The notes under the pieces were generated by a model. That model made no database searches. It was not told where the DNA came from and saw only the letters and a program-made list of their open reading frames with translations. A program made the translations under genes and the position numbers. A stretch of DNA of 63,514 nt. Origin: an uncultured Oscillospiraceae bacterium. Its GTDB lineage: Bacteria; Bacillota; Clostridia; Oscillospirales; Oscillospiraceae. Below, piece by piece: positions 7,700 to 59,809 of this stretch; position 1 is the stretch's first letter, and each line of letters opens with the position of its first letter. The DNA lies in NCBI GenBank assembly GCA_950097245.1, contig CATNCS010000007.1:1-63514 (forward strand). The letters run 5' to 3'.

Positions 7700-9022
7700 A
7701 TGGCAAACAATGACGAGAGAAAGGTCCGCTGCTCCTTCTGCGGCAAGCACCCCGACCAGGTGAAGCGGATGATTGCCGGCCCGGGGGTCTATATCTGCAA
7801 CGAGTGCGTCAATCTGTGCGTAGAGGCCATGGGGGCGGACCCCCTGCTGCTGGACGACTTTGACCAGTTCCCCGGGGACGTCCCCGACGCCATCCCTACC
7901 CCCAGGGAGATCCACGCCGTGCTGGACCAGTATATCATCGGCCAGGAGAGGGCCAAGGTGGCCCTGTCGGTGGCGGTGTACAACCACTATAAGCGCATCT
8001 ACTTCGGCGGAGCGGAGGATGTGGAGCTGCAAAAGAGCAACATCCTGCTCATGGGCCCTACCGGCTGCGGCAAGACCCTCTTTGCCCAGACTCTGGCCCG
8101 GGTGCTGAGGGTCCCCTTTGCCATCGCCGACGCCACCACCCTCACCGAGGCGGGCTATGTGGGCGACGACGTGGAGAATATCCTCCTGCGCCTGGTCCAG
8201 GCCGCCGACTATGACATTGAGCTGGCCGAGCGGGGCATCATCTATATTGACGAGATGGACAAAATCGCCCGGAAGAGCGAGAATGTCTCCATCACACGGG
8301 ACGTGTCCGGCGAGGGCGTGCAGCAGGCCCTTCTGAAGATTCTGGAGGGCACCGTGGCTAACGTCCCCCCCCAGGGCGGACGGAAGCACCCCCACCAGGA
8401 GTTCATCCAGATCGACACCCACAATATTCTGTTCATCTGCGGCGGCGCCTTCGACGGCATCGACAAGATCATTGAGCACCGCCTGGACAAGCGGTCTCTG
8501 GGCTTCGGCGCAGAGATCAAGAGCCGGAAGGAACGGAATGTGGGAGAGCTGATGAATGAAATTCAGCCCCAGGATCTGCTGAAATACGGCATCATTCCCG
8601 AGCTGGTGGGCCGCATGCCGGTGCTTACCACCCTGGAGTCTCTGGACAGGGACCAGATGGTGCGTATCCTCACCGAGCCCAAAAACGCCCTGGTGAAGCA
8701 GTACCAGGTTCTGCTGAACTACGACGAGGTGGAGCTGGAGTTTACCCAGGAGGCGCTGGAGGCGGTGGCCGACCGGGCGGTGGCCCGGGAGATCGGGGCC
8801 CGGGGCCTGCGTGCCATCCTGGAGGAGGTCATGAACCAGATCATGTACGACATCCCCTCCGACCCCACCATCGTCAAGGTGACCATCAACGGCCAGTGTG
8901 TCCGGGACGGCGCCCCCCCTGAGCTCACCCGGGACCCTGGCCGCACCCAGCGGCCCAAGCTGGGCCGGGCCGCCCTCCAGGTGGAGCAGCCCGGCCGCCG
9001 GGACCACGGCCGGGCGGGCTGA
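7700..9022 (+). CDS. clpX: ATP-dependent Clp protease ATP-binding subunit ClpX
   Basis: AAA+ unfoldase that recognises substrates and feeds them into ClpP. The 440-residue protein has the N-terminal zinc-binding domain (Cys11, Cys14, Cys33, Cys36). Walker A is GPTGCGKT at 119-126, with Walker B IIYIDEMD at 180-187 and the GYVGDDVEN pore-region segment between them. The C-terminal ~40 residues are Arg/Pro-rich and not conserved. It lies directly after clpP, its functional partner, and before lon. Confidence 0.96.
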
Positions 9023-9035
9023 CAAAACAAAAAAT

Positions 9036-9068
9036 CAGGCGCCCCGCCCCAACCGAGCGGGGCGTCTG
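9036..9068 (+). terminator. Stem-loop after clpX
   Basis: Arms 9036-9047 and 9057-9068 pair over 12 positions with one G-T pair, starting 14 bases after the clpX stop. There is no clear T-run, so it may be a weak terminator or an RNA 3'-end stabiliser. Confidence 0.45.
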
Positions 9069-9082
9069 TCCTACCCTGTGTG

Positions 9083-9152
9083 CGGGCCGCCGAAGGCGGC
9101 GGCCCCTACACGAATAAACCCGTAGGGGCCGGCCCCCTGGCCGGCCCGCAGG
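9083..9152. repeat. GTAGGGG-type palindromic elements, two facing hairpins
   Basis: Two hairpins of the dispersed family lie back to back: one ends in GGCCCCTAC (9101-9109), the other starts at GTAGGGGCC (9121-9129). They are separated by about 11 bases and sit immediately upstream of the lon ribosome site. The order is reversed compared with other copies, so the GTAGGGG and CCCCTAC ends face inwards. Confidence 0.7.
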
Positions 9153-9169
9153 CAAAAGGAAGTGAGACC

Positions 9170-11605
9170 ATGAGCAAAGAATTTGATATTCTGAATACCT
9201 CTACCATGCCCGTCATCGCCCTGCGGGGGCTGACGGTGTTCCCCAATGTGCTCATCCACTTCGAGGTGGCCCGGCCCGCCTCCGTGCGGGCCCTGGAGGC
9301 GGCCATGACCGCCGGCAGCCCGGTCTTCCTGGTGGGTCAGAAGGACATCAACCTGGAGGAGCCCGGGCTGGACGACCTGTATCAGGTGGGCACTGTCTCC
9401 ACCATCCGACAGATTCTCCGGATGCCCGGGGACAACGTGCGTGTGATGGTGGAGGGTGTGTCCCGGGGTAGGCTGCTCCAGCTGCTGCGCACCGAGCCCC
9501 ATCTGGAGGCGGAGGTGCAGGAGATCAGCGCCCCTGAGTCCCCCGCCCGGGGCAGCGCCAAAACCGAGGCCCTGATGCGCTCCACCTACGACCTGTTCCA
9601 GGACTACGCCGAGCTGGCACCCAAGCTGTCCCCTGATCTGATTGTCCACGTGCTGGCCAGCCAGGACCCGGGGCACATCGCCGACTATATCGCCCAGAAC
9701 ATCCCCATGCGCAACGGCGACAAGCAGATGATTCTGGAGGAGCTGCGCCCCGTCAAACGGCTGGAGAAGCTCCGCCGCCTGCTGGAGCGGGAGGTGGAGA
9801 TTCTCACCCTGGACCAGGAGATTCAGGAGCGGGCCCGGGAACGGGTGAACGACCACCAACGGGACTACTACCTCCGGGAGCAGATGAAGGCTATCCAGAC
9901 CGAGTTGGGGGAGGAGGCCGACGAGATTGAGGAGTACCGGGAGAAGATCGCCCAGGCTGTCCTGCCCGACGAGGTGCGGGAGAAGCTGAACAAGGAGCTG
10001 AGCCGTCTGGCGAAGCAGTCCTACAGCTCCTCGGAGAGCACCGTCCTGCGCAGCTATCTGGACATCTGCCTGGAGCTGCCCTGGGGAAAGACCACCAGGG
10101 AGAAGGTGAATGTCTCCGCTGTCCGGAAGGTGCTGGACCAGGACCACTTCGGCCTGGACAAGGTAAAGAAACGGGTGCTGGAGTTTGTGGCCGTCCGCCA
10201 GCTGGCCCCGGAGCTGAAGGGGCAGATCATCTGCCTGGTGGGCCCGCCGGGGGTGGGCAAGACCTCCATCGCCATGTCCATGGCCAAGGCCATGAACCGG
10301 AAGCTGGCCCGCATCTCCCTGGGCGGGGTCAGCGATGAGGCCGAGATCCGGGGCCACCGGAAGACCTACGTGGGGGCCATGCCCGGCCGGATTATCACTG
10401 CCATCAACCAGGCCCAGAGCTGCAACCCCCTGATCCTGCTGGACGAGATCGACAAGCTGGGCCATGACCACCGGGGGGACCCCTCCTCCGCCCTGCTGGA
10501 GGTGCTGGACGGGGAGCAGAATTCCACCTTCCGGGACAATTTCCTGGAGGTGCCCTTCGACCTGTCACAGGTGATGTTCATCACCACCGCCAACACCACC
10601 GACACCATCCCCCGGCCCCTGCTGGACCGGATGGAGGTCATTGAGCTGTCCAGCTACACCGACGAGGAGAAGGTGCAGATCGCCAAAAAGCACCTGCTGC
10701 CCAAGGAAATCAAGCGCCACGGCCTGACGAAGGGGCAGCTGAAGGTGTCCGACGGGGCCCTGCGGGAGGTTATCGCCGCCTACACCCGGGAGTCGGGGGT
10801 CCGGGTGCTGGAGCGCCGGCTGGCCGCCGTCTGCCGCAAGGCCGCCATGAAGGTGGTGTCCGACGGGGAAAAGGCCATCCGGGTCACCGACAAGGACCTG
10901 GAGGAGTACCTGGGCGTGCCCCGCTACCACCCGGAGCGCCAGGCCCTGGAGGAGCGGGTCGGCGTGGTCAACGGCCTGGCCTGGACCTCCGTGGGGGGCG
11001 AGCTGCTGGAGGTGGAGGTCAACGTGGTCCCCGGCTCCGGCAAGGTGGAGCTCACCGGCAATCTGGGCGACGTGATGAAGGAGTCGGCCCACGCCGCCCT
11101 CAGCTTCATCCGCAGCCAGGCCGGCCGCATGAACCTCCCCGCCGACTTCTACAAGGAGAAGGACATTCACGTCCACTTCCCCGAGGGGGCGGTGCCCAAG
11201 GACGGCCCCTCCGCCGGTATCGCCATCACCACCGCCATGGTATCCGCCCTCACCGGCGTTTCCGTGCGCCGGGGAATCGCCATGACCGGCGAGGTCACCC
11301 TCCGGGGGCGGGTGCTGCCCATCGGCGGCCTGAAGGAAAAGACCATGGCCGCCTTCCGCAACGGGATTAAAACAGTGATTATCCCCGCCGACAACGCCAA
11401 GGACCTGGAGGAGATCGACCAAAATGTGCGCAAGGCCCTCCAGTTTATCTTGGTGGAGCGGGCGGACCAGGTGCTGGCCCAGGCCCTGAACCGCCCGGTG
11501 GAGGTCCCCGCACCCCGCCGCCGGGGCCGCCCCAGGAAGGACGAGGCCCTGCCTGAGCTGCCGCCCACGTCCCAGGGGGAGGACAGCTCCCGGCTGAGCC
11601 AGTAG
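9170..11605 (+). CDS. lon: ATP-dependent protease Lon
   Basis: Cytoplasmic AAA+ protease that degrades misfolded and regulatory proteins. Counted from the ATG at 9170, the 811-residue protein has the Lon N-domain, Walker A GPPGVGKT at 358-365, Walker B LILLDEID at 421-428, and the catalytic Ser681 (in PKDGPSAGI) and Lys724 (in GGLKEK). This start is chosen because AAAGGAAGTGAG precedes it; the longer open frame from 9080 runs through a palindromic repeat. The C-terminal tail contains RRRGRPRK, an AT-hook-like motif not typical of Lon. The stop codon TAG lies in the end of a dispersed element. Confidence 0.96.
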
Positions 11606-52253: not shown

Positions 52254-54161
52254 TTACTCGGCGTAGGGCTTGGCGGTTTCGATGTACACGCCACGTTCAG
52301 CGGTCCATCCCACGTAGAAGTCCAGCGCCTTGCCCAGGTCACGGAGCTTAAAGTAGTTATTGCCGTCGATCTTATACACCTCGGCCTCCACCTTCTGGCC
52401 GTCGATGTAGATGGAGTCGTTGCTGATGGCCGCGGCCTTCTCGCCGCCTGTGGGCGCACCCGCCAGATCGCCGTCCAGCTTTTCGTAGCCCTCGCCGGTG
52501 GTGGCGGTGACGGAGTTCAGCGCGGCGTCATAGCCCACGGAGAACTGCTTGGAGGTGCCGTTGAGGATGGCGGCCAGATCCCGGATCTTGAAGTAGTTGC
52601 TGCCGTTGATCTTGTAGACGGTGGGGTTTTGAAGGGCGCCGTCGGAGGTCAGGCTGTCGTTGGTGGGATTGGCGGCGGCATTCTGGGCGGGGGGAGTGGG
52701 CTTCTCCGGCTGGGTGGGTGTGGAGGGTATGGACGAGCCCTCCAGAGCGCCGAAGCCGAACATCCCGTTGGTGGCCTGGTAGACAAACAGGCCGTCGGTG
52801 TTGGGCAGGGAGGCCCGGTTGTTCAGGGTGCCGGTCACCTTGCCGGTATTGTAGTCGGCGTAGACGGTGGCGTAGCTGCCGTCGGCCAGCTTATAGCAGA
52901 AGGGGAGCTCGCTCTTGTCGTAGCCGTCGTAGGATTTGGCCAGCCACATGGCGTCGCCCAGGTCCTTGGACAGGGGATTGCCGGGGACAGCGTGGAACAT
53001 CTGGATTCTTTCCGCAGTAGCGGGGACGATAGTCTGGTTGTTCAGGTCCACGATGCTGTAGTTTTTGCCGTCGTACAGCTCAATAAAGTCCAGGGTGTGC
53101 AGACGCATATCCAGATACTTCATGGGGATCACAGAGGTCCCGTTGAGGGCGGTCACGCCAAAGCGGGTGCCGTCATAGAGCTGATACTTGTTGTCCTTCA
53201 GATAGTTGATCTTCTCATAGCCGTCCTTGAAGATGACCTTGCCGTCGTAGCTGTACAGGCCATAGATATAGTTCCAGCTCTCATCCTGGCTAAAGGTGAG
53301 CAGGTTGCCGTTGTTGTCGCCGTTGATTCCCTCGTAATTGGCGGGAATGATGACCTTGCCGTCAACATCCATCATGCCCACCTTTTTGCTTTCGCCGTCC
53401 CGGAAGGCCAGGTCGCGGTAGTAGGTCGCGGTGGCCACTTCCTTGTCGAAGGTCTTCACCAGGCTGCCGTCCTTATACAGCTGGGTGGTGTTGCTGCCGG
53501 AGCTGTAAGCGGCGATATAGCCCTTCTGGTTCATGTCATATACCACATAGTCGCCCAGGGGGACCAGCACCTTGCCGATTTTGTCCACCGCGCCCATCTG
53601 GCTGCCCTTGTACACAAGCAGAACGCCCTCGCCGCCGGGGTAGATCTCGTCGTACTTCCCGGCAAAGCTGTACTGAGGGGCGTTGTCGCTGGAGCCGCCG
53701 GAGTAGCTGCCGTAGTAGGCGTCGCTGGTGGAGGGCTTCATGTCGGTGGTGTAGTATTTGTCGTCGACCTGGATGGTCTGGTTGTTGCAGGCGATCCAGT
53801 GGTCGCCCATGGCCACCACCGCCTTGCCGGTGGAGTCGATGATGCCGCTGTTGCCGGAGTAGCCGTCGACACTGTCGCTGACCTTGAACAGGCCGCCGCC
53901 CATGGCCCACATGCCCGCGTACTGGAAGGGCACGACCACCTTGCCGGCGGCGTCGATCAGGCCGTACTGCCTGCTGGAGTTGGCCGCGGCCACCACGCCG
54001 TTCTGGAACATCAGCATGCGGGAGTAGCTGGTCACGGCGATGTCGTAGTAGCTGGCCTCGCCGTAGGTGGCCTTGAGCTGGGCCGCCGAAACGGGCAGGA
54101 CGGTGCTGAGCATCATGCAGATGGTCAGCAGGGCGGCGAAAAACTTGCGATTCAATTTCAT
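52254..54161 (-). CDS. Secreted WG-repeat protein with C-terminal copper-amine-oxidase-like stalk domains
   Basis: The 635-residue protein has a signal peptide (about 1-26, ending VSA). A long region of WG-type repeats follows (recurrent patterns such as YGLIDAAGKVVVPFQYAG, SGIIDSTGKAVV, GMMDVDGKVIIPANYEG), then a Pro-rich linker. Two stalk-domain-like segments come last (YKINGSNYFKIRDLAAIL, YKIDGNNYFKLRDLGKAL). Probably cell-wall or surface. It overlaps the O-antigen-ligase-like gene by 4 bases, so it belongs to the same operon. Confidence 0.83.
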   Translation of the reverse strand: MKLNRKFFAALLTICMMLSTVLPVSAAQLKATYGEASYYDIAVTSYSRMLMFQNGVVAAANSSRQYGLIDAAGKVVVPFQYAGMWAMGGGLFKVSDSVDGYSGNSGIIDSTGKAVVAMGDHWIACNNQTIQVDDKYYTTDMKPSTSDAYYGSYSGGSSDNAPQYSFAGKYDEIYPGGEGVLLVYKGSQMGAVDKIGKVLVPLGDYVVYDMNQKGYIAAYSSGSNTTQLYKDGSLVKTFDKEVATATYYRDLAFRDGESKKVGMMDVDGKVIIPANYEGINGDNNGNLLTFSQDESWNYIYGLYSYDGKVIFKDGYEKINYLKDNKYQLYDGTRFGVTALNGTSVIPMKYLDMRLHTLDFIELYDGKNYSIVDLNNQTIVPATAERIQMFHAVPGNPLSKDLGDAMWLAKSYDGYDKSELPFCYKLADGSYATVYADYNTGKVTGTLNNRASLPNTDGLFVYQATNGMFGFGALEGSSIPSTPTQPEKPTPPAQNAAANPTNDSLTSDGALQNPTVYKINGSNYFKIRDLAAILNGTSKQFSVGYDAALNSVTATTGEGYEKLDGDLAGAPTGGEKAAAISNDSIYIDGQKVEAEVYKIDGNNYFKLRDLGKALDFYVGWTAERGVYIETAKPYAE

Positions 54162-55864
54162 AGATTTCTCAGCCTCTCTTCTATTTGATGTAAGCGCTCC
54201 AATATCTCACCGCTGAAGTCCAGTTGAGGCTTGTCCGCGATGCGATATGCCAGGGGACTGGTTGTATGGTTCACCTCCTCCAATTGCTGCATCACACTCC
54301 GGGTTACGGTAAGATATCTGGAAAGTTCCTCCCGGGAACCTTGCGCACAGGCATTTTCCAGCAGCGCGGTGAAGCCCTCGTACACCTCGCCCCGGTAACG
54401 GTTCAGCCGCAGATAGCGGTATTTCGCCTCCACCATGGCGGGCAGGTCGGCCCGCCGGGCCGCCGCGCCGAATTTGCAGTCCCAGGCCACCATGGACAGG
54501 GGCGTCGATTCAAGGATGCGGTCGGCTGTGGGCTCGGCCTGCTCCACAGTGGAGAAGGTCTGCAGGTAGTTCTCGGCCAGGGACAGGTCGGCGGGAAACA
54601 TGGTATAGGCGGCCTTGGCCTGTCCGGTAAAATCCATAAAGTACGCGGTGGAGAAGTAACCGAACACCAGAGCCAGCAGGGCCCCGGATATGAGAGCGGG
54701 GCGGCGGGGCAGGGAAATCCGACGGCACGTTCCCCCCGAGCCGCACAGCAGCAGCAGAAAGGCCACAGCGGAAAAATGCAGGTCGAAGTCAATAAAGCTG
54801 TGGGCGGCAATGGCAAAGACCACCGCCCTCTCCCGCAGGGGGGCGCCCTTCCGGAACAGGAGGGCGGCCGCCAGGCCGGCAAGGAGCAGCCCGGCCGGGA
54901 TGCCGCCGTCCAGGGCGGCCTGGAGATACTCGTTATGGATGGACCGCAGGGTATAGACGCCCGTCTGCTCCAGGGCCTGGATGTAGAGGTAGCCCCCCCG
55001 TCCCACCCCCAGAGGGTGGCGCAGCAGCATCTGAAGGCCGTCCAGGTAGTACAAAAGCCGCCCGTTGAGGCTGGAGGAGGACAGGGTGATGGCCCGCAGG
55101 CGGTCCAGCACCAGCCCGCCGCTGAACACCACGGCCAGCGCCCCCATCGCCAGGATGCCCAGGGCGGCCAGGGCCGCGGGCAGGATTTTTTTCTCCTTCA
55201 GGACGGACCGCCCGCCCCAGACCAGAGCCATAAACAGGAACAGCAGGAAGATGCCCCGGGAGCCGGACAGGTAGATGCCGCACACCAGCACCGCCATGGC
55301 CGCCCAGTCAATTCTGCGGCGCCTGTCCTTTAAAAGCAGCAGAATCAGGCAGATCAGCTGGAACAGGGCCCAGGTGTTGGCATACTGAAACAGCCCGTCG
55401 ATTCTCCCGTTCCGGCTGGCAACGCCCGCCGCGCCGTTGTACAGAAAGGCCGCCGTGGCCAGCAGGGACAGGATGGCCCCCTCATAGGCCACCGCGTCCA
55501 GAATCTGCCTTCGCTCCTCCCGGGAGTAGGAGGCGGCGTAGACAAAGAAGAGAACCCACACCGCGATGCGCAGAAATCCGGTGAACGCCATGCCCGGGCT
55601 CACCGCAAAGGGGACGGTCAGCAGATGGCAGGCGCACAGCCCGTACAGACACCAGGCCTCCGCCCCCACCGGCAGACAGAGCGCTCCGGACCGGCGGACG
55701 GTCCAGCCCAGCAGCAGGAGCAGCAGCACCCCGCAGGCCAGCACCGAAAAGTTGTAGTACCCCCCGAACAGAGGGAGGATGAGCAGCATCAGAAACAGCA
55801 GCGGCGTATTGGTCCGGGGCCGCTCCGCCGGAACAGACGGCCTCTTTTTGCTATTCCTGCCCAT
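54158..55864 (-). CDS. O-antigen ligase/polymerase-like membrane protein (Wzy_C family)
   Basis: A 568-residue integral membrane protein with about twelve hydrophobic segments and the Wzy_C signature near the middle (HPLGVGRGGYLYI, then HNEYLQAALDGG). A soluble C-terminal domain (about 400-568) of the kind found in Gram-positive ligase-like proteins follows. It may polymerise or attach surface glycans. It starts at the ATG at 55864; the frame continues upstream but would overlap the carboxypeptidase gene heavily. It overlaps that gene by 14 bases and the WG-repeat gene by 4. Confidence 0.83.
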   Translation of the reverse strand: MGRNSKKRPSVPAERPRTNTPLLFLMLLILPLFGGYYNFSVLACGVLLLLLLGWTVRRSGALCLPVGAEAWCLYGLCACHLLTVPFAVSPGMAFTGFLRIAVWVLFFVYAASYSREERRQILDAVAYEGAILSLLATAAFLYNGAAGVASRNGRIDGLFQYANTWALFQLICLILLLLKDRRRRIDWAAMAVLVCGIYLSGSRGIFLLFLFMALVWGGRSVLKEKKILPAALAALGILAMGALAVVFSGGLVLDRLRAITLSSSSLNGRLLYYLDGLQMLLRHPLGVGRGGYLYIQALEQTGVYTLRSIHNEYLQAALDGGIPAGLLLAGLAAALLFRKGAPLRERAVVFAIAAHSFIDFDLHFSAVAFLLLLCGSGGTCRRISLPRRPALISGALLALVFGYFSTAYFMDFTGQAKAAYTMFPADLSLAENYLQTFSTVEQAEPTADRILESTPLSMVAWDCKFGAAARRADLPAMVEAKYRYLRLNRYRGEVYEGFTALLENACAQGSREELSRYLTVTRSVMQQLEEVNHTTSPLAYRIADKPQLDFSGEILERLHQIEERLRNL

Positions 55865-56738
55865 GCCGTTCCTCCCCAAACAGCACGTCCACCACGGTTT
55901 TGGCCTCAGAAAAACGGCTGTTGTCGTTGTTGCTGTCCAGCAGGACAATCACATATTCCTGGTCCCCCTCCTGGGCCAGGGTCACCAGATTGTACCCGCC
56001 GATGAGGGTGGTGCCGGTCTTCAGGCCCTTTACCCGGGAGTCCCGGCCCACCAGGCGGTGCATGTTTTTAAACTCCCGGCCCTCCACGGTCAGCTCGGGC
56101 ACGCTGGTGAAGTCCAGCAGCTCCGGGTGGGCCCGGACCAGCGCCCGGGACAGCACCGCGATGTCGTGGGCGGTCATGTAGTGGCCGGAGGCGTCGATGC
56201 CTGTGGCGTTGGCAAAGTTAGAGCCCTTCATGCCCAGCTCCTTTGCCTTCTTGTTCATCCGGACCACAAAAGCGGCCTCGTCCTGGGCGCACATCAGCAC
56301 CAGGCACTGGACGCAGTCGCAGCCGCTGGACAGCACGGTGCCCGCCACCAGCTGCCGGACGGTAAAGACCTCCCCGGGACGCATGCCGTATTTGGAGCCC
56401 TGGGTATGGGCCTGCTCAGCGGTGACGGTAAAGGTGTCCTCCCAGTCCAGGGCGCCGCTCTCCAGGTCGTCCAGCACCAGAAACAGGGTCATCAGCTTGG
56501 TCAGGCTGGCGGGAGAGCGGGGCATGTCCATCTCCTGACTGTAGACAAACCCTCCGGTGTTGACATCCATAACCGCCGCGTAGCGGGCCGTGAGATAGGG
56601 CAGCTCAATCCGGGGCGCGGCAAGATGCCGCCACACCGCGGCCGCGCACACCAGAACGGCGGCCGCCGCCAGCAGCAGGATAATCCGTCCTTTGGCGGGC
56701 GGTTTGCCGGGCTTGGAGGATGTTTTCTTTTTTTTCAT
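55851..56738 (-). CDS. D-alanyl-D-alanine carboxypeptidase-like protein with altered second motif
   Basis: The 295-residue protein has a basic N-terminus, a membrane anchor (about 19-38) and a penicillin-binding serine-peptidase domain. The motifs are SLTK (78-81) and KTG (in GLKTGTT); the second motif is SGC (138-140) instead of SGN. Enzyme activity may therefore differ. The start at 56738 follows AAAGGTGG; the frame runs further to 56786 without support. It lies in the operon between the pseudo-P-type ATPase and the O-antigen-ligase-like gene. Confidence 0.82.
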   Translation of the reverse strand: MKKKKTSSKPGKPPAKGRIILLLAAAAVLVCAAAVWRHLAAPRIELPYLTARYAAVMDVNTGGFVYSQEMDMPRSPASLTKLMTLFLVLDDLESGALDWEDTFTVTAEQAHTQGSKYGMRPGEVFTVRQLVAGTVLSSGCDCVQCLVLMCAQDEAAFVVRMNKKAKELGMKGSNFANATGIDASGHYMTAHDIAVLSRALVRAHPELLDFTSVPELTVEGREFKNMHRLVGRDSRVKGLKTGTTLIGGYNLVTLAQEGDQEYVIVLLDSNNDNSRFSEAKTVVDVLFGEERHGQE

Positions 56739-56790
56739 AGTCAGCGGCCCACCTTTTATAATACTGTAGCCGTACCGGGATATCATTCCC

Positions 56791-58926
56791 CTAAAACCGA
56801 TGAACCCAGCCCGACAGGAACCACACGGGGGCCAGCCAGGTAAGCATGTAGATAAGCAGGTTCAGGGGGGACAGAGAGGTGTAGGCCCCCACGGAGGTGA
56901 GGTAGGCGGCCAGGGCGAGCCCCAGCAGGGAGGCGGCGCAGCACAGGGCTCCGCCCAGCCGGGTGGCCCAGCGCAGCCGCTTGGCGGCGATGATGGCCTC
57001 GGCAAAGGGGAGCAGACCCTCCCGGCACAGCAGGGCGGTGAGCACGCCGTCGTGGACCTGCTCCGGGTCGGACAGCTCCCTGCGGCGCTCCACCCCGGGA
57101 AAGGCCATCTTGTCCGCCGCCAGCTTGAACCGCTGCTGGAGCATGGCGGGAATCAGGTTGAAGTCCCGGGTGGCCAGCACCGGCTCCACCTTCTCCAGCA
57201 TCAGGGACTCCAGAGCGGGAAAGACGGTGTCGGGCAGGGTGTAGCTCAGGGCGAAGATGCCGGCCAGCTTGCCGTCGATGGCGCAGAAAACGGCGTTTTT
57301 CACGTTCAGCCCCTGGGGCAGGCGGATCTCCATCAGCTTCATAAAGGCGGCGGAGCCCACCAGCACCTGGTCCCCCCGGATCACGGCGGACAGGCCGCCC
57401 CCCTCGTGGCACTGGAGGCTGCCGGCGTTGCGCATCAGACCGCCCATAGACCGGAGCTGGTTGTGGAACAGGGTGGTCAGCCCGCTGCCCGAGTCCCGGA
57501 TGAGGGTGGCGGTGTAGGCCACCACCCGCTCGGCGGGGAAGTCGGAAATGACCTTAAAGCCGCTGAGCTCCACGTAACCGGGGGGGAAGAGGTCGCCGTC
57601 GGTGAGAAGGACGCAGCAGCCCTTGCGGGAGGCGGCGATGCCCGGCCAGCCGGCCAGGGCGGCCCCGCTGGTGGCCAGCCGCCGGGTGGCCTTGTGAAAG
57701 GCCCGGCCGTATGCCAGCGCTCCGCCGAAGGCGGCGGTGGCGGTAAACAGGGCGGACAGGGCCCAGACAAGCCGCTCCGGATGGTCTCCGCCCACGGAGG
57801 AGATCAGGGCAAAGACCACGTCACCCAGGACCAGCAGGGGGCAGAACCGGCGGAAGATGCGCTGGGCGCCGTCGTCGGTCTGAATCTGGCTGCCAAAGTC
57901 CTCCTGGGTCCCCGACCACTTGGCATAGGTGTCCTTGTCGTTCCATTTGCCCGGGTCCAGGGTGATGCGGTAGGGGGAGGCGGCGGAGGCGGCGGTGCGG
58001 CAGGACAGCCGCAGAGCGCATTTTTTGTGGTAGGTCCCGTGGAGCAGAAAAAACAGCCCCGTCAGGCAGACCAGGGAGTAGGGCAGCCGCTGGGGCGCCT
58101 CCGGGGACAGGACAAGCTGAACTCCGTCGGCCAGGGTGAAGAGGCAGGCCAGGGCGGACATGGTGTCCATGCCGAACCTTCCCAGGCAGGCCCGAGCCGC
58201 TCCGGCGGCCAGCACCTCAATAGAGAGCAGGGTGCCCAGGGCCAGCAGCCCTGTGGCCAGCAGACATTGGGCCTTGGGCTGATCCAGGGGCTGGGGCCAG
58301 CCCAGCCCCGCCAGGGGGGCCAAAGTCTGGGCCAGGGCCAGGAGGGACAGAAGAAGGACCAGCAGCACCCGGGTGCGCATCCACTTCAGCCCCCTGCCGT
58401 ACCGGCGGGCCAGCTCCTGGGGGGCGACGTCCGGAGGCGGGGGCTCCTGGCGCTTGACGGGCTTCCACCGCCGGGCCGGGGCCTCCTCGCCGGGCTCCTC
58501 CCGGTCGGTGCCGGGAATCAGGCGCTCCAGCCGGCGGACCTCCGCCTTGTCGATGGCCTCGTCCTCCTCAAACATGCGGTCGGCGTAGTCGTCCGCCTTC
58601 CGGTTCAGGTCGTGGACCAGGGCGGACAGGCCGCTGCGCTTTTTGGGGAAAGGGGTGATCTCCGCTGTCTGCGGGGGCTCCTCCGGAAGGGGGGGGTCCT
58701 CCTCGTCCGGCTCCTCGGGGGGCGGGACGGCCCGCCGTCCCGGAAAGGGCACCATGTTGCCGGGGAGGTCCTCCGGGGTTGCGGGGAGCTCCTCCGGGGG
58801 CTCGGGCGGATAGCCGTACTCGGCCATAATGTCATCCAGGGAGAAGTCCCCGCCGTCGGCGTCTCCGATCAGCGACTTGATGTCGATGAGCTCGCCCTTA
58901 TTCTGTTTTTTTTCTCGGTCGCTCAT
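56791..58926 (-). CDS. Degenerate P-type-ATPase-like membrane protein
   Basis: The 711-residue protein has a disordered, Pro/Glu-rich N-terminal region (1-175), paired membrane helices, and a fold-like order recalling heavy-metal P-type ATPases. Visible are GMDTMSAL (252-259, like the conserved MD.L.AL helix), SGTQEDFG (338-345, like the actuator GT.N..G), VLVGSAAFM (521-529, like the nucleotide-domain GN..FM) and DGKLAG.. ALSYTLPD (551-566). The DKTGT phosphorylation site is replaced by TDGDLF (442-447), and no TGD (ATRD at 585-588) or GDGxND is seen. Ion pumping is unlikely; a scaffold or sensor role is inferred. No family name is recognised. Confidence 0.65.
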   Translation of the reverse strand: MSDREKKQNKGELIDIKSLIGDADGGDFSLDDIMAEYGYPPEPPEELPATPEDLPGNMVPFPGRRAVPPPEEPDEEDPPLPEEPPQTAEITPFPKKRSGLSALVHDLNRKADDYADRMFEEDEAIDKAEVRRLERLIPGTDREEPGEEAPARRWKPVKRQEPPPPDVAPQELARRYGRGLKWMRTRVLLVLLLSLLALAQTLAPLAGLGWPQPLDQPKAQCLLATGLLALGTLLSIEVLAAGAARACLGRFGMDTMSALACLFTLADGVQLVLSPEAPQRLPYSLVCLTGLFFLLHGTYHKKCALRLSCRTAASAASPYRITLDPGKWNDKDTYAKWSGTQEDFGSQIQTDDGAQRIFRRFCPLLVLGDVVFALISSVGGDHPERLVWALSALFTATAAFGGALAYGRAFHKATRRLATSGAALAGWPGIAASRKGCCVLLTDGDLFPPGYVELSGFKVISDFPAERVVAYTATLIRDSGSGLTTLFHNQLRSMGGLMRNAGSLQCHEGGGLSAVIRGDQVLVGSAAFMKLMEIRLPQGLNVKNAVFCAIDGKLAGIFALSYTLPDTVFPALESLMLEKVEPVLATRDFNLIPAMLQQRFKLAADKMAFPGVERRRELSDPEQVHDGVLTALLCREGLLPFAEAIIAAKRLRWATRLGGALCCAASLLGLALAAYLTSVGAYTSLSPLNLLIYMLTWLAPVWFLSGWVHRF

Positions 58927-59026: not shown

Positions 59027-59809
59027 TCACCCCATCCTCTGTCTGACCGCCTCATAGAGCAGCACGGCGGCCGCGGCGGAGGCGTTGAGGGAGTTGATTT
59101 TACCAAACATGGGGATGGACACGGTGAAGTCGCAGGTCTCCTCCACCAGCCGGCCCAGGCCGGAGCCCTCGCTGCCGATGACGATGGCGGCGGGGCCCTT
59201 CAGGTCGGCCTGATAGAGGGAGGTGGTCCCGCCCATGGTGGCCCCGAAGACCCAGATTCCCTCCTCCTTCAGCTCCTTGAGCAGGGCGGGCAGGTTGGGC
59301 ACCCGGGCCACGGGGACGTGGGCCACCGCCCCGGCGGAGGTCTTGCCCACGATGGCCGTCAGCCCGGCGGAGCGGCGCTTGGGGATAATCACCCCGTGGG
59401 CTCCGGCGGCGTCGGCGGTGCGGATGACCGCACCCAGGTTGTGAGGGTCGGACAGCTCGTCGCACACCACGATCAAAGGCTGTTCCCCCTTTTCCCGGGC
59501 GGCGGCAAGAATGTCGTCCACGCTGGCGTATTCCCGGACGGCGGCCTGGGCGATGACCCCCTGGTGGGCGTGGGTGCGGCTCATGTTGTCCAGCTTGCGC
59601 CGGTCGGCGTCCACCACCACGATGCCCTTCTCCCGGGCGGCGGAGGCGATGTGGCCCAGGGCGGCGTCGGTCTCCCCCCTGGCGATGAAGATCTTGTCGA
59701 TGGTCACCCCGGCCCGCAGGGCCTCGATGACGGCGTTGCGGCCCTCGATGATGCCGTCGTTCTCCTGCTCCACTGGGGCGGAGCGGCGCAGAGGGGGGCG
59801 TTTGTTCAT
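59027..59809 (-). CDS. rlmB: 23S rRNA (guanosine-2251-2'-O)-methyltransferase RlmB (TrmH family)
   Basis: SPOUT-fold methyltransferase for G2251 of 23S rRNA. The 260-residue protein has an N-terminal substrate-binding domain (EGRNAVIEAL at about 22-31). The trefoil-knot motifs are LSDPHNLGAVIRTADAAG, IGSEGSGLGRLVEE and IPMFGKINSLNASAAAAVLLYE. The ATG at 59809 follows a GGAAGGACTGACTCCC region; an extended -10 box TAGAAT lies upstream at 59852-59857. It is separated from the pseudo-P-type ATPase gene by a palindromic element. Confidence 0.95.
   Translation of the reverse strand: MNKRPPLRRSAPVEQENDGIIEGRNAVIEALRAGVTIDKIFIARGETDAALGHIASAAREKGIVVVDADRRKLDNMSRTHAHQGVIAQAAVREYASVDDILAAAREKGEQPLIVVCDELSDPHNLGAVIRTADAAGAHGVIIPKRRSAGLTAIVGKTSAGAVAHVPVARVPNLPALLKELKEEGIWVFGATMGGTTSLYQADLKGPAAIVIGSEGSGLGRLVEETCDFTVSIPMFGKINSLNASAAAAVLLYEAVRQRMG

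Follow-up and report, generated by a model that had tools for sequence, protein, structure and literature searches.

A P1B-type ATPase family of the Oscillospirales that has lost its catalytic motifs and is probably kept for a non-pumping role

The window analysed here is a 63,514-nucleotide stretch, contig CATNCS010000007.1 of assembly GCA_950097245.1, from an uncultured Oscillospiraceae bacterium (order Oscillospirales). Its minus strand encodes, at 56791..58926, a protein of 711 residues related to the P1B (heavy-metal) P-type ATPases, in which the motifs for phosphorylation, dephosphorylation and the binding of Mg and metal are all lost. The explanation we favour, with fair but not strong confidence, is that a copper-type P1B ATPase lost its activity before the order radiated, or early in that radiation, and has been kept as a non-transporting membrane protein, putatively as a scaffold; at the least, the family protein probably has a new, non-pumping job. 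The computed basis is homology to P1B pumps, the predicted helix order, purifying selection, occurrence in most of the order's genomes that were sampled, and linkage to rlmB.

Homology and predicted fold

The open reading frame (ORF) at 56791..58926 begins with ATG and runs through 711 codons with no internal stop, as a first-pass annotation of the DNA had described it, and the genome search together with fold and profile matches to CopA identify it as a pseudo-P1B-ATPase gene. The relationship to P1B pumps is detectable only by means of a family profile, since the window protein matches no Pfam family at all, those relatives that were scanned singly give no Pfam P-type ATPase match, and the window protein scores E=0.1 (11.4 bits, against a cut-off of 346) to the NCBIfam heavy-metal ATPase model TIGR01525. 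A phmmer search of the single sequence against PDB likewise returns weak unrelated matches only. A profile built from 14 diverse family members, however, finds CopA among PDB sequences at E=2.5e-23 and aligns by hhalign to P1B pumps with a probability of 99.7 (E=1.4e-26). A profile of 81 close relatives is weaker, reaching HMA4 at E=0.0043 and an hhalign probability of 96.9% (E=1.4e-10) with a gap opened around the former phosphorylation site. Judged from such profile scores, the similarity to P1B pumps is not a matter of chance, and the PDB search and hhalign together argue for common ancestry with class P1B.

The AlphaFold model and a fold search place an eight-helix core in P1B order, along with the phosphorylation (P) and nucleotide-binding (N) domains (the helix names MA, MB and M1-M6 are our own assignment; all features below lie on the minus strand). 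Predicted helices MA, MB, M1 and the start of M2 occupy residues 180-300 (58027..58389), with MB broken at 234/236. Residues 301-352 (57871..58026) form a stub of the actuator (A) domain with a beta hairpin, and M3 and M4, the latter predicted to be broken, follow at residues 353-420 (57667..57870). The N domain, residues 452-563 (57238..57573), superposes on 2voy_J with a root-mean-square deviation (rmsd) of 2.3 over 109 residues, and M5 and M6 close the chain at residues 638-706 (56809..57015), so that every core helix is predicted. The domain order on which the first-pass annotation had staked its proposal of a heavy-metal ATPase fold, stripped of its catalytic motifs and reused, is thus kept, if incompletely, the A domain having shrunk to a stub; profile, fold and the alignment described below all support that proposal. 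The local motifs it had cited are partly where a P-type ATPase would have them. MDTMSAL, from residue 253 on, lies within a predicted helix (253-273) and aligns to the NMDVLVALGT-type stretch of true pumps, and VLVGSAAFM and DGKLAG are N-domain segments in the profile alignments, but GTQEDFG falls in the A-domain stub and is not the TGES loop.

Loss of the catalytic motifs

P-type ATPases are defined by a phosphorylated aspartate. To see what remains of that site and the others, 84 family members (the window protein, 23 loci of the set L031-L054, and 60 loci from 60 genera) were aligned with 25 genuine P1B pumps; two split genes (L048 and L055) are excluded from these counts and from the tree, the best fragment of each entering a separate 86-row alignment. 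DKTGT is present in 25/25 true pumps and in none of the 84 family rows, so no homologue with an intact site, which would have marked the window copy as a recent pseudogene, occurs among them. In the window protein the former phosphorylation site, residues 442-450 (57577..57603), reads TDGDLFPPG in place of DKTGTLTxG. The MAFFT alignments and the diverse-profile hhalign place TDGDLF on DKTGT without a gap (D to T442, K to D443, T to G444, G to D445, T to L446), as the first-pass annotation had proposed; the gap in the 81-row hhalign leaves the register there unsettled.

The remaining motifs are gone as well. GDGxND, found in all 25 true pumps, is gapped in 84/84 family rows and deleted in the window protein, as had been claimed (a GDG string occurs somewhere in 10 of the 84). 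CPC, also noted as missing, is retained in 0/84 rows against 25/25 pumps; the window protein has A398-A399-F400 at the site, although the proline survives in 50/84 rows. TGD is intact at its site in no family row (the string occurs elsewhere in 10), and in the window protein the site reads T586-R587-D588 (57163..57171); the earlier claim that TGD had given way to ATRD is therefore right about the motif, but the aspartate itself is kept, here and in 80/84 rows. The PxDK lysine is K in 3/84 rows. The histidine of the HP motif, which stacks on adenine, is H at its column in 0/84 rows against 25/25 pumps (an HP[LVIM] string turns up anywhere in 12 rows). No row has TGES at its site (TGE[SAP] occurs elsewhere in two), and the A-domain interval is 46-75 residues long (median 53) in the 84 members versus 129-130 in the 25 pumps. 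What the N domain of the window protein keeps is the GxG and the G of GN, SEHP being missing; across the family the N-domain glycines are retained in 83/84 and 84/84 rows.

The column of the nucleophile is unconstrained over the 84 rows (T 29, R 12, D 12, S 9, K 6, G 4, N 4, and others). What is conserved is a replacement motif, D-x-D-(L/I/V)-F-P, shifted one position on from the nucleophile: D443 and D445 are invariant in the 81 close relatives, and the same columns are D in 66/84 and 67/84 of the diverse rows. Since DxD is motif I of the HAD phosphatases, the protein might still be an enzyme, with TDGDLF serving as a HAD-type motif I one residue off the P-type register, or its headpiece might bind or sense a nucleotide or phosphate. 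The kept aspartate of TGD, the N-domain glycines and the register left unsettled by one alignment speak for this explanation, but the HAD motif IV stretch is the one gapped throughout, the PxDK lysine is nearly always replaced, T sits on the nucleophile in MAFFT and in the diverse-profile hhalign, and the HP histidine is missing everywhere at its column. We consider a surviving enzyme improbable, if the best of the alternatives.

Distribution and selection

A search with the window protein finds matches in 56/60 genomes, its own included (those without are G019, G034, G040 and G055), and named database records among the best 80 of 167 confirmed matches bear titles such as Oscillospiraceae bacterium, Flavonifractor, Pseudoflavonifractor, Lawsonibacter, Clostridiales bacterium or uncultured bacterium. 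The family profile matches every one of 395 genomes of the order. Because true copper pumps match it too, we set a bar at the best match among 231 genomes outside the order, 9.6e-29 (from a set of 243, of which 12 belong to the order). Above this bar stand 379/395 genomes, a count that includes the window's own genome and several members of the profile and takes matches near the bar uninspected. In the other 16 the gene is absent or the copy has diverged; G041 has such a diverged copy, beside rlmB (locus L050), and scoring additional candidates brings G317 to 7.2e-38. The 84 members form one clade with no true pump inside it (support 0.758), and the tree, with its long branch, that support and one outgroup, gives no placement of the clade within a P1B subclass. 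At two loci (L048:4164-6557 and L055:4221-6445) the gene appears as two consecutive ORFs, through sequencing error, frameshift or a true split.

Purifying selection acts on the window's gene. Against seven close relatives the ratio of nonsynonymous to synonymous substitution rates (dN/dS) is 0.22-0.40 for the whole gene. Region by region, it spans 0.09-0.28 in the P/N headpiece and 0.21-0.56 in MA-M4, where it exceeds the headpiece value in 7/7 pairs; the stub gives 0.09-0.50, M5-M6 0.09-0.36 and the N-terminal tail 0.27-0.51. Invariant positions in the 81 rows number 29/103 in the N domain, 24/74 and 11/40 in the second and first P segments, 13/52 in the stub, 9/74 in M5-M6, 5/68 in M3-M4 and 3/123 in MA-M2 (residues 178-300). 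Mean identity among 11 rows of the window's family (stub 0.63, P+N 0.61, M5-M6 0.50, M3-M4 0.44, MA-M2 0.37), set against nine CopA-like pumps (A domain 0.56, P+N 0.51, M5-M6 0.64, M3-M4 0.57, MA-M2 0.43), implies that weight has moved from the membrane to the cytosolic part relative to working pumps. We read this as a function that lies mainly in the cytosolic part.

These figures also bear on the idea that the helix core still transports, as a channel or secondary carrier that needs no ATP hydrolysis. In its favour, the model contains every core helix and the break in M4, the proline of CPC often survives, and M5-M6 is strongly constrained; the near lack of invariant positions in MA-M2, the weaker constraint on MA-M4 than on the headpiece in every pair, and the complete loss of CPC make such a carrier less probable again than a surviving enzyme.

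The N-terminal tail

The long Pro/Glu-rich N-terminal tail noticed at first pass is real: residues 1-177 (58396..58926) carry a net charge of -18. Model confidence is low over most of it (AlphaFold per-residue confidence, pLDDT, of 38-61 by block over residues 1-100), and short conserved islands stand out from variable, low-confidence surroundings. The clearest island is the peptide FSLDDIMAEY, residues 28-37 (58816..58845), in which L30, I33, A35 and E36 are kept in 91-96% of the 81 rows; in the form [FY]SLDDILAE[FY] it is recognisable in 43/84 diverse rows. Searched as a strict DNA pattern in eight whole genomes, it matched only the family gene, in 3/8. Islands of this kind would be typical of peptide recognition motifs. 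Family tails have a median length of 228.5 residues and are net negative in 72/84 members, the lengths perhaps being overestimated because gene starts were taken as the first ATG, GTG or TTG after a stop. By this first-start estimate, L196, L205, L207, L043 and L037 have tails of about 490-900 residues, and Pfam finds no fused domain in the long-tailed relatives L037, L043, L196, L201, L205 and L207.

Neighbouring genes

Upstream of the family gene, on the same strand, lies rlmB (59027..59809), encoding the 23S rRNA (G2251) 2'-O-methyltransferase (TIGR00186, E=2.1e-72). This arrangement holds in 84/85 loci (L031-L055 and L152-L211, a set that favours well-scoring genera), with ORF ends -192 to 159 bases apart; at the exception, L033, a gene for an Obg-like GTPase takes the rlmB position. 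Downstream genes vary among loci. Of 63 loci with a same-strand downstream ORF of at least 100 residues within 250 bases, 28 fall in one cluster, which includes an EF-G-like gene by Pfam (L156; the related L034 gene likewise), and five in another, which includes a prolyl-tRNA synthetase (L159). Ten neighbours were scanned, among them one downstream gene that is Era-like (GTPase plus KH domain) and one YebC. At one locus (L042) a second P-type ATPase relative, P2-like and lacking DKTGT and GDGxND, lies upstream of rlmB (8954-11161, minus strand), so that rlmB is flanked by dead P-type ATPases on both sides.

Among 20 Clostridia from outside the order, the gene that follows rlmB looks YacP-like in seven, SigH-like in six, and other or none in seven (judged by eye from the sequences). 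No standalone YacP is present among the matches in 59 genomes of the order; YacP/NYN domains occur in 18/59, all inside frames of at least 861 residues (e.g. G000:C9:23480-23929).

In the window, the genes right behind the family gene form a tight same-strand cluster (52254-56786), and they are as first described: an S11 peptidase (Peptidase_S11, E=1.5e-50), a Wzy-like protein (Wzy_C, 3.9e-18) and a WG-repeat protein (3.1e-7). From this operon the first-pass annotation had suggested a part in envelope assembly or sensing, along with these DD-carboxypeptidase, O-antigen-ligase-like and WG-repeat proteins, and the S11 gene does follow on the same strand after a gap of a few bases. The four-gene arrangement was not found at the other loci compared, however. 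BLAST of the S11 and Wzy proteins against the ORFs of L001-L059 and L072-L151 matched the window's own locus only, and the WG protein matched none of them (its own fetched locus, L001, stops before the WG gene). The partners were not found even at L098, L101, L110 and L150, where the family protein is about 80% identical and flanks extend 7 kb. L001-L030 contribute short flanks only, 58/80 of the loci L072-L151 extend at least 4.7 kb downstream, and L152-L211 stand outside this comparison. With rlmB the constant neighbour, an envelope role seems quite unlikely. Simple decay, to which the loss of every catalytic motif and the two split copies might point, is scarcely credible for a gene that has an open frame, is kept in most genomes of the order and shows dN/dS well below 1.

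A putative membrane scaffold

If the inactivated P1B ATPase is indeed kept as a membrane-anchored scaffold, its helices would hold the protein at the membrane, the N/P headpiece (with the conserved stub in the window's family) would offer a binding surface, and the acidic tail with its short conserved peptides would extend into the cytoplasm and catch a partner. Our leading guess for that partner is a component of translation or ribosome maturation, given the constant link to rlmB and the translation genes often nearby.

Several results weigh against this reading. The whole-chain superposition is loose (rmsd about 10, TM 0.43). An aspartate occupies the phosphorylation position in 12/84 rows (DSQDI, DAKDL and similar), all lacking GDGxND, and these may be intermediates. 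The retained glycines make nucleotide binding by the N domain, without hydrolysis, possible. Constraint on M5-M6 equals that on the headpiece, with lower dN/dS in 4/7 pairs, so the constraint is not all cytosolic; and over the 84 members no region is less alike than the stub (mean pairwise identity 0.165, against 0.262 for P+N, 0.233 for M5-M6, 0.217 for M3-M4 and 0.210 for MA-M2), which makes the conserved stub a trait of the window's family and not of the order. The link to rlmB may reflect nothing more than operon inheritance; the downstream neighbours vary, and gene order in a housekeeping region is weak evidence for a link to translation.

A bolder version is speculative, and we would not expect it to hold in full: throughout the order, a copper pump would have become a dedicated membrane scaffold without catalysis, linking the membrane with the ribosome or with ribosome maturation. 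It would recruit its partner through a linear peptide motif in the acidic tail and fill the position behind rlmB that in 13/20 other Clostridia belongs to a SigH-like gene or to one of the YacP/Rae1 type (a ribosome-linked nuclease). A clade that has lost its catalytic motifs, yet by the bar set above is kept in most of the order's genomes that were sampled, shows that the fold of a pump can persist for a purpose other than pumping. It also gives a testable hypothesis for a gene, found in common gut bacteria, that Pfam misses and that scores far under the cut-off in NCBIfam.

Comparison with known systems

The literature searched (subscription journals lie mostly outside it, and the FUPA surveys are not covered) describes no family of P-type pseudo-ATPases, and a word search of the text of PMC10654040 found no such case. 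The available part of one survey (PMC3896382) reports that 99.77% of the sequences identified there carry DKTGT and that 22 have point mutations in the motif. Those mutants resemble the present family in being P-type ATPases without an intact DKTGT; as far as that text goes, they are single substitutions in proteins detected by Pfam, whereas here several motifs are lost across a whole clade. The P2-like pseudo-ATPase of genus g18 (that of locus L042) is likewise a P-type relative without catalytic motifs beside rlmB, but its only Pfam match is the actuator domain PF00122, which it has kept, and strong homologues occur only in G114 and G088 (3/117 genomes, counting its own). KdpB, MgtA and other P-type ATPases share the overall superfamily fold but score lower, the similarity being weaker than to P1B, and the catalytic motifs are lost in the present family. 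The closest known systems are the CopA-type P1B ATPases (LpCopA, 3rfu/4bbj; ATP7B, 7si6; HMA4, 8q75). With these the family protein shares sequence ancestry, the order of the helices, including the breaks in MB and M4, and the P and N domains; unlike them, it lacks DKTGT, TGES, CPC, the HP histidine and GDGxND, has only a stub for an A domain, and carries an additional acidic tail.
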